From positions 6,790 to 56,438 of the forward strand of contig NZ_AOIL01000068.1 in the NCBI RefSeq assembly GCF_000337595.1: DNA of 49,649 nt, read 5' to 3'. The position numbers and the translations under genes are program-made. Positions within the stretch are counted from its first letter, which is position 1; each line of letters begins with the position of its first letter. The notes beneath the pieces were generated by a model. That model had not been told where the DNA came from. It searched no databases and worked only from the letters and a program-made list of their open reading frames with translations. Shown here piece after piece: positions 1 to 640 of the stretch. This stretch comes from Natrialba taiwanensis DSM 12281 (lineage in GTDB: Archaea > Halobacteriota > Halobacteria > Halobacteriales > Natrialbaceae).

Positions 1-542
1 AGGCCGTAAATGATGTCCCGGCGCACGTCGCTCGCGAGGTCCTTCGGCGCGAGGTCGAAGTAGCCGCCCGCGTCGTTGGTCGTCGTCGTCGCGTATCCGT
101 CTTCGTCCTCCTCGAACAGGAAGAACTCCGGTTCCGGCGCGGCGTTGACCGTATATCCCATCTCCTTGGCACGGTCGAGGGCGCGCTTGAGCACGTAGCG
201 CGGATCGCCCTCGAACGGCTCGCCCGTCGAGGTGTCGTAGACGTCGCAGATCATCCGGGCCGCCGCGCTGTTCTCGTCGTTGCGCCACGGCAAGATTGCG
301 AACGTCTCCGGATCCGGCTTCAGCCGCATGTCCGATTCCTGGATCCGGACGAAACCCTCGATCGAGGAGCCGTCGAAGTAGATGCCCTCGGTAAACGCCT
401 TCTCGGCCTGACGTGCCGGCACAGAGACGTTCTTGACGGTTCCGAGGATATCCGTAAACTGCAATCGGAGGAAATCGACGTCCTCCGTCTCGATTTTGTC
501 TAACACGTTCTGTTCTGCCGTAGTCAGGTTCCCGTCTGTCAT
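1..542 (-). CDS. glnA: Glutamine synthetase type I, N-terminal 180 residues (cut by window edge)
   Basis: Makes glutamine from glutamate, ammonia and ATP, the main ammonia-assimilating step in the cytoplasm. Reading leftward from ATG at 542 gives [17 protein letters not shown], then the type I beta-grasp region ([16 protein letters not shown]), then FDGSSIEGF and the start of the catalytic domain with PEPEFFLFE, whose glutamates bind metal. The reading frame is open to base 1, so the C-terminal part lies outside the window. The ATG sits about 30 bases downstream of a TATA-like box and next to a large imperfect palindrome, so regulation by nitrogen state is plausible (inference). Identification is certain from motifs. 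Confidence 0.96.
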
Positions 543-572
543 CTTTTGTTCGGCTCAACCCACGGTACCCAC

Positions 573-581
573 TACTAAAAC
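573..581 (-). promoter_or_regulatory. TATA-like box of glnA
   Basis: On the minus strand this reads GTTTTAGTA and lies 31-39 bases before the glnA ATG, a distance that leaves only a very short leader. It directly abuts the palindrome at 587-640, so a protein bound there would sit at the BRE/TFB side of the promoter. Confidence 0.5.
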
Positions 582-586
582 TCTAC

Positions 587-640
587 TGTTGTGGGCGAAT
601 ATCCTTCTTCACATGGATTCGTGGATGTTTGTCCACAACA
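587..640. promoter_or_regulatory. Large imperfect palindrome upstream of glnA, likely operator
   Basis: Two 18-base arms (587-604 and 623-640) match as inverted repeats at 15 of 18 positions, separated by an 18-base spacer. The distal arm contains TGGACAAACATCCA on the minus strand, itself a partial dyad (TGGA/TCCA). The same 14 bases occur once more in the window at 13458-13471. Position just upstream of the glnA TATA box suggests binding of a nitrogen or amino-acid regulator such as an Lrp/AsnC protein; that identity is inference. Confidence 0.5.

Follow-up and report, generated by a model that had tools for sequence, protein, structure and literature searches.

A two-box element upstream of a duplicated haloarchaeal glnA as a candidate Lrp-type control region

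Directly upstream of the core promoter of a glnA gene in Natrialba taiwanensis there is a conserved element of two boxes, and with a probability of about 0.5 we consider that it activates a duplicated haloarchaeal glnA from upstream, as an element of the Lrp type derived from a control region shared by lrp and glnA. The features are collected in Table 1, numbered from the first letter of the window, by which we mean the whole stretch of 49,649 nucleotides that was analysed.

Table 1. Features mapped at the glnA end of the window
Feature	Positions	Strand	Remarks
First 180 codons of glnA (glutamine synthetase), clade B paralog	3..542	-	window starts inside gene; ATG at 542
BRE/TATA-like core promoter of glnA (TAGAGTTTTAGTAGT)	571..585	-	TATA-like TTTTAGTA at 573-580; presumed from sequence
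Proximal box GGATATTCGCCCACAACAG	586..604	-	abuts BRE; includes left arm 587-604
Palindrome spacer	605..622	.	sequence unconserved, length nearly fixed in the alignments
Distal box core ACAAACATCCA	622..632	-	aligned with ACGAAYATnCA of the clade A lrp/glnA intergenic region
16-bp imperfect dyad GTGGATGTTTGTCCAC	621..636	.	overlaps right arm; 5/8 pairs by eye
Right arm of palindrome	623..640	.	outer half 632-640 resembles left arm in three species only

We envisage that lrp and glnA, as divergent genes, shared an ancestral control region that would have passed its layout to the duplicated glnA, with a proximal box beside the glnA BRE (586-604) and an inverted distal box (622-632) at a nearly fixed distance. 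The likely binder would be the haloarchaeal Lrp whose gene neighbors the other glnA copy, acting in trans. Bound to the proximal box it could help to recruit TBP and TFB to a weak TATA element, and the distal box might provide for cooperative binding, a single protein presumably occupying both. The location of the proximal box against the BRE would suit an activator, unlike that of a repressor covering the TATA element. From the arrangement described below we infer the binding of Lrp, the activation, and a signal of nitrogen status or an amino acid.

The window GlnA fragment has TIGR00653 as its best NCBIfam match (E 1.3e-48, 165.9 bits, the full-length cut-off being 429 and only 180 aa having been scanned), and is 99% identical to the GlnA of Natrialba aegyptia and N. 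asiatica. The host genome (4.6 Mb in 70 contigs) has a second glnA on contig C17, 88% identical over the fragment and divergent from lrp, and a distant glnA-like gene with 36% identity. Upstream of the window glnA, in the place of lrp, lies a divergent thioredoxin-like gene (755-1111, + strand; TIGR01068, below cut-off). In both glnA copies some 85-90 bases of the gene are repeated either side of a single N, at window 1-90 plus C68:6702-6789 (L096) and at about 1990-2160 of L095, the window starting after the N. This looks like an assembly join over a stretch common to both paralogs, with no real duplication.

The earlier note had described a 54-bp inverted repeat at this position, and its geometry is reproduced exactly. 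The sequence 587-604 (TGTTGTGGGCGAATATCC) is identical to the reverse complement of 623-640 (TGTTGTGGACAAACATCC) at 15 of 18 positions, around a spacer of 18 bases (605-622), and as described it lies directly upstream of the glnA TATA, given the presumed core promoter that adjoins it. Within the intergenic region 543-754 a repeat as good arises in one of 1000 Markov copies. Over the entire 49.6-kb window the count of inverted repeats is unremarkable: eight, including an overlapping pair, reach at least 15/18 with a spacer of 0-40, where 20 first-order Markov copies give 3.2 (sd 3.9). A degenerate arm pattern has zero-mismatch matches in the genome at the two arms only, with 15 additional places at three mismatches, compared with six for the reversed control pattern. 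A dimer-of-dimers geometry, also proposed for the repeat, is not particularly supported, as the arm centres lie 36 bp apart, some 3.4 turns and thus non-integral, and the interval in the clade A loci described below is 22 or 23 nt.

We compared 81 upstream regions, comprising the window and 80 glnA loci that were the best 80 of 452, from named genomes. They divide according to the presence of lrp. In clade A lrp is divergent and upstream of glnA in 51/51 loci, a figure that is partly by construction because 50 of the 51 were assigned by means of the lrp start motif. In clade B, to which the window belongs, lrp is found within 2.5 kb in none of the 30 loci, at least one contig (L056) reaching only 2.3 kb upstream, less than the distance searched. 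One locus (L066) was first assigned by pattern to clade B, and was moved to clade A when lrp was found. The symmetry and motif comparisons omit 9 of the 31 non-redundant clade A regions, in which the register is shifted, and 4 of 26 in clade B (L066, L025, L026 and L028), leaving 22 loci. A held-out set of 20 clade B loci, 14 of them with less than 85% identity to the earlier set, was picked by the proximal box and is thus uninformative on that box; 19 of the 20 have a GlnA match at a very permissive threshold (E up to 10), and the remaining one has a GlnA-like start by eye.

When the labels A and B are placed on the GlnA tree three changes are needed, at least two of them forced by well-supported branches, with weak support within the family, so that glnA without lrp probably has more than one origin. 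At two loci (L034 and L041) glnA lacks lrp, the GlnA falls with L035, a copy of clade A, and the proximal box is still of the clade A type; these have probably lost the lrp neighbor independently. A contig titled Candidatus Nealsonbacteria (L040) bears a haloarchaeal lrp/glnA locus, and is probably mis-binned.

The earlier note had called for a comparison of the 18-bp arms at orthologous glnA genes, and they are not conserved. Both full arms occur in 3 of the 81 regions, those of the window, N. aegyptia and N. asiatica (L002 and L003), and two held-out copies at 15/18 come again from N. aegyptia and N. asiatica. Mean agreement between the two arms is 6.6/18 in the 22 non-redundant clade B loci, or 6.2 without the single member of this trio, set against a background of 4.6 (sd 0.96) in which 124 of 2510 placements exceed the latter value. 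In clade A it is 8.0, exceeded by 7 of the 2510 placements. With the arms near background in the clade B loci beyond three close species, the 54-bp palindrome is ruled out as a conserved glnA operator. The reason for the low agreement outside the trio is that only the inner nine columns are inverted copies, the outer nine being unrelated. On comparing clade A distal with clade B proximal columns, the inner nine (CGAATATnC) correlate at 0.94, the first of 66 axes, compared with 0.56 (second) within clade A alone and 0.43 (first) within clade B alone. The outer nine give 0.04, -0.03 and 0.16 in the three comparisons, the value for clade A distal against clade B proximal being -0.03. The inner 9 bp are thus one motif, inverted and in the register of the palindrome, and the outer 9 bp are lineage-specific; the outer match TGTTGTGG is confined to the window, N. 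aegyptia and N. asiatica, and is missing from four other genomes of the genus. We see the symmetrical 54-bp palindrome as an embellishment local to the N. aegyptia/asiatica group. What stands of the proposed glnA control element is a conserved element directly upstream of BRE/TATA, for which a binder of the Lrp family is plausible; its identification with the palindrome does not.

There are two boxes between the divergent genes of clade A. The lrp-side box TTTACGAAYATnCARTT is present in 41 of the 51 loci, and its core in 43, and on one side it overlaps the lrp TATA/BRE. From the core to NTTGC, part of the box that lies beside the glnA BRE, there are 22 nt in 37 of the 51 loci and 23 nt in six, with eight unmatched. 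TTGC at any position of the 160 nt upstream is found in 51 of 51 clade A and 15 of 30 clade B loci, a criterion too loose to carry weight. The glnA-side box has a mean information of 1.14 bits versus 1.54 for the lrp-side box; the BRE/TATA columns are among the best conserved in both clades, at 1.32 bits in A and 1.48 in B. Without mismatch, the two-box pattern is found in 97 of the 194 genomes of the class and in 40 of 65 genera, once per genome except in G065, and the reversed control gives none. In all 30 of the loci retrieved with it, lrp and glnA flank it as expected.

The pattern fails in half of the genomes, including all 13 sampled from family f2. We revisited 26 pattern-negative genomes by way of lrp, which provided 30 loci of which 22 were read, with mismatches counted without a shuffled control; six of the others had no match to the helix string, and two, from G138 (family f5), had neither a glnA match nor a box. 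In the 22 loci lrp and glnA are divergent, and the lrp-side box has 0-3 mismatches in 19 and 4-5 in three, at an offset from lrp that is constant to plus or minus one base. It often reads TTTACGAAYGTCCA. The TTGC of the glnA side is not always kept, and is absent in several family f2 loci. These loci extend the lrp-side box and leave the odds of the explanations unchanged. At two lrp genes, L124 (in G049) and L155 (the second match in G065), the lrp-side box is kept and no glnA is seen beside it, L124 having no GlnA match and the open frames of L155 showing none; L124 came from a variant of the two-box pattern with a shorter gap, which matched one of 194 genomes. Since the lrp-side motif is kept at two lrp genes that have no glnA, it is tied to lrp itself, and these loci are a useful natural test of lrp autoregulation.

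In clade B the proximal box is nearly invariant (TATTCGCCCACAACA, inside 586-604), with TATTCGCC in 27 of 30 loci (the exceptions are L025, L034 and L041) and in none of the 51 of clade A. Averaged over the 22 non-redundant loci, the proximal box carries 1.41 bits of information, the distal box 0.79, the spacer 0.33 and the far upstream sequence 0.27. In the 14 more divergent held-out loci the distal box has 0.54 bits against 0.41 for the spacer, and its conservation in clade B is thus modest. The axis of the 16-bp dyad is the best in five Natrialba sequences (mean 5.6 of 8 pairs, z 3.9). Scored over 8 pairs it is only fifth in the 22 clade B loci, where an axis at the edge of the proximal box (70.5) is second, and it falls outside the top six of clade A; over 11 pairs it is second among the six best of clade A.

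A possible alternative, which we do not favor, is that only the proximal box functions, the distal box being a decaying relic of a lost lrp promoter and the palindrome a coincidence fixed in a small lineage. The contrast between the nearly invariant proximal and weak distal box in clade B is consistent with this, as is the ACGAAYATNCA core, which none of the 30 clade B loci keep. So is the restriction of the full arms to three close species, between two of which, N. asiatica and the window, the arms have 0 changes in 36 positions and the surroundings 11 in 164, a difference that is not significant (p 0.22). Yet of the 12-column stretches that lie beyond the clade B proximal box on its upstream side, the best conserved still falls on the distal box, at 0.95 bits against a median of 0.32, and the two boxes align with no indel between them in 27 of the 30 loci. 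Moreover, variants of the GTCCA type need not mean decay, because other families also have them in the box on the lrp side, adjoining lrp itself. Some observations weigh against an Lrp-type activating element as well. The distal conservation of clade A largely overlaps the lrp TATA/BRE, the clade B distal box is weak, and the glnA-side box of clade A is less well kept than that on the lrp side. In addition the proximal box is unique in the genome, whereas Lrp is described as a regulator of many targets.

The inverted inner cores could also reflect an exchange of sides, although we think it somewhat unlikely that the strong core switched sides once a duplicate of glnA had been separated from lrp. 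On this view the CGAATATnC core of clade A would stand beside the lrp promoter for autoregulation, with a weaker box at glnA. In clade B the same core would lie inverted beside the glnA promoter, with a loose box on the former lrp side, and the palindrome would mark a lineage in which both sides converged on one sequence to give a symmetrical operator. If true, this would be a readable case of a regulator whose affinity was transferred from its own gene to the gene it controls.

It is improbable that the boxes bind another factor, such as a different protein of the Lrp family like the one put forward for an unrelated AT-rich motif in Hfx. volcanii (PMC6801745), and that their adjacency to lrp is incidental. 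Lrp is after all a deduced binder, there are eight matches to the Lrp/AsnC ligand domain in the genome, and the proximal box takes a very specific form in clade B; on the other hand, the lrp-side box stays with the two lrp genes that lack glnA. In favor of the Lrp-type element, the Lrp encoded beside the second glnA of the genome belongs to the haloarchaeal Lrp equivalog NF041396 (277 bits, cut-off 190), and its best match by sequence to a solved structure is 8q90 (E 1.5e-80). The string [ST]VTTVSNHL, which we take to be the recognition helix of Lrp, is present at 45 of the 51 loci; its lack at six counts against that reading.

Binding by a repressor of the NrpR type, as at the glnA of methanogens, is very unlikely. 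The methanogen NrpR operator is GGAA-N6-TTCC, with palindromic sites at glnA. The distal dyad reads GGA-N6-TCC and so resembles it, although the full GGAA-N6-TTCC is not present, the window reading GGACAAACATCC. PF01995 (NrpR-like) matches two places in the genome, and is found in 7/7 sampled genomes of the genus. Nevertheless it occurs in only 27 of 121 genomes of the family, and is lacking from 33 of the 48 genomes with a zero-mismatch proximal box among the matches listed, not all of these confirmed to lie at glnA. The Haloferax volcanii control genome has no PF01995 match, and seven Haloferax species keep the lrp-side box. The PF01995 genes of Natrialba taiwanensis adjoin genes for an agmatinase-like protein, an aminotransferase and an ABC transporter, away from glnA. 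NrpR is thus disfavored as a general binder by the patchy distribution of PF01995, which does not track the box. The two NrpR-like genes lie at about 3.8-4.3 and 9.9-10.9 kb of L101 (C52:172000-186000), the names of their neighbors being read off translations; one has, by eye, an N-terminal winged-helix-like segment, and the single PF01995 protein scanned gave no NCBIfam match. The pair may regulate how Natrialba uses polyamines or agmatine.

A structured RNA or terminator is barely credible: the inverted arms could form a hairpin, but the element lies upstream of the expected start site, an Rfam scan of 450-800 (E up to 1) gave no match, and relatives do not keep the arm pairing, and we rejected RNA structure.

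No wider regulon was found in the genome among 20 matches outside glnA and lrp, of which six were inspected. The proximal box has a single match there at up to three mismatches, as does its reversed control; a one-mismatch scan finds it in 104 of 121 genomes of the family, an inflated figure, since the reversed control also matches many. The 20 outside matches are to the distal-box (5) and arm (15) patterns, with 4 and 6 for the reversed controls. None of the six inspected lies at recognizable nitrogen genes: four are inside open frames, one is between convergent genes beside an integrase-like gene, and the sixth is in AT-rich DNA with no 100-aa open frame across it.

Work on other haloarchaea links Lrp to glnA. 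In Halobacterium salinarum lrp overexpression induced glnA, and the table row for glnA has values of -1.5 and 2.1 that we take as lrp deletion and overexpression respectively (PMC2894021). In Haloferax mediterranei the Lrp encoded adjacent to glnA was pulled down on the nasABC promoter, and mutation of a palindrome in that promoter had no significant effect (PMC8143581). That Lrp behaves like a tetramer of some 67 kDa, and lrp expression was unchanged across the nitrogen sources tested (PMC8229911). An RNA-seq study of denitrification records no rise in glnA transcription (PMC11218638). A simple nitrogen switch is therefore disfavored, given an lrp gene unresponsive to nitrogen source, a flat glnA in RNA-seq and the nasABC palindrome mutation without significant effect. 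For the ammonium and alanine response of Hfx. volcanii the regulation proposed involves another motif, AT-rich, and a different protein of the Lrp type (PMC6801745). In the literature covered, in which subscription journals are thinly represented, no conserved operator of haloarchaeal glnA is described; that silence indicates novelty only weakly. Against this background the element provides concrete, mutable coordinates for a cis-element through which Lrp may control haloarchaeal glutamine synthetase, and a candidate operator for a gene where the sources covered define none. Loci where glnA occurs with or without lrp, and lrp with or without glnA, are natural promoter variants that already separate its two halves, and the history of its conservation is itself instructive.

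The operators of archaeal Lrp/AsnC proteins, such as that of Ptr2 in M. jannaschii, are imperfect dyads upstream of BRE/TATA, with multiple sites per promoter. The window element resembles those of Ptr2 and Sa-Lrp in having more than one putative site upstream of BRE/TATA. Dyad symmetry, imperfect and spanning about 11-17 bp, would also be expected of an Lrp/AsnC-type operator; the 16-bp dyad at 621-636 is strong only in Natrialba. Such an operator would be expected to have its regulator encoded alongside, or the same motif at the regulator's own promoter, and this is found at all 51 clade A loci and at L124 and L155, the window's own glnA copy being without an adjacent lrp. It would also have more than one site per promoter at a fixed spacing, as in the 22 or 23 nt of 43 of 51 clade A loci and the indel-free alignment of 27 of 30 in clade B. 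Sa-Lrp of Sulfolobus binds glutamine synthetase promoters (PMC6801745). The boxes differ from the ideal Lrp site AGAATTTATTCT (PMC8143581), and Lrp binding to them is a prediction. With regard to the NrpR operators at methanogen glnA and nif, a protein of the NrpR-like family is present in the genome, but its distribution does not follow that of the box. The lrp/glnA loci of Hbt. salinarum and Hfx. mediterranei are like those of clade A in having the same gene pair and kind of Lrp, and in Hbt. salinarum glnA responds to Lrp dosage (PMC2894021). According to a published description, lrp in these two species lies downstream of glnA in the opposite direction, with separate promoters (PMC8229911), whereas in the seven Haloferax loci that we compared, a set that excludes Hfx. 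mediterranei, lrp is upstream and divergent. In contrast to both species, the glnA of the window is an additional copy and has no lrp neighbor. As a type of archaeal upstream activating region, probably Lrp-type, the element is ordinary.
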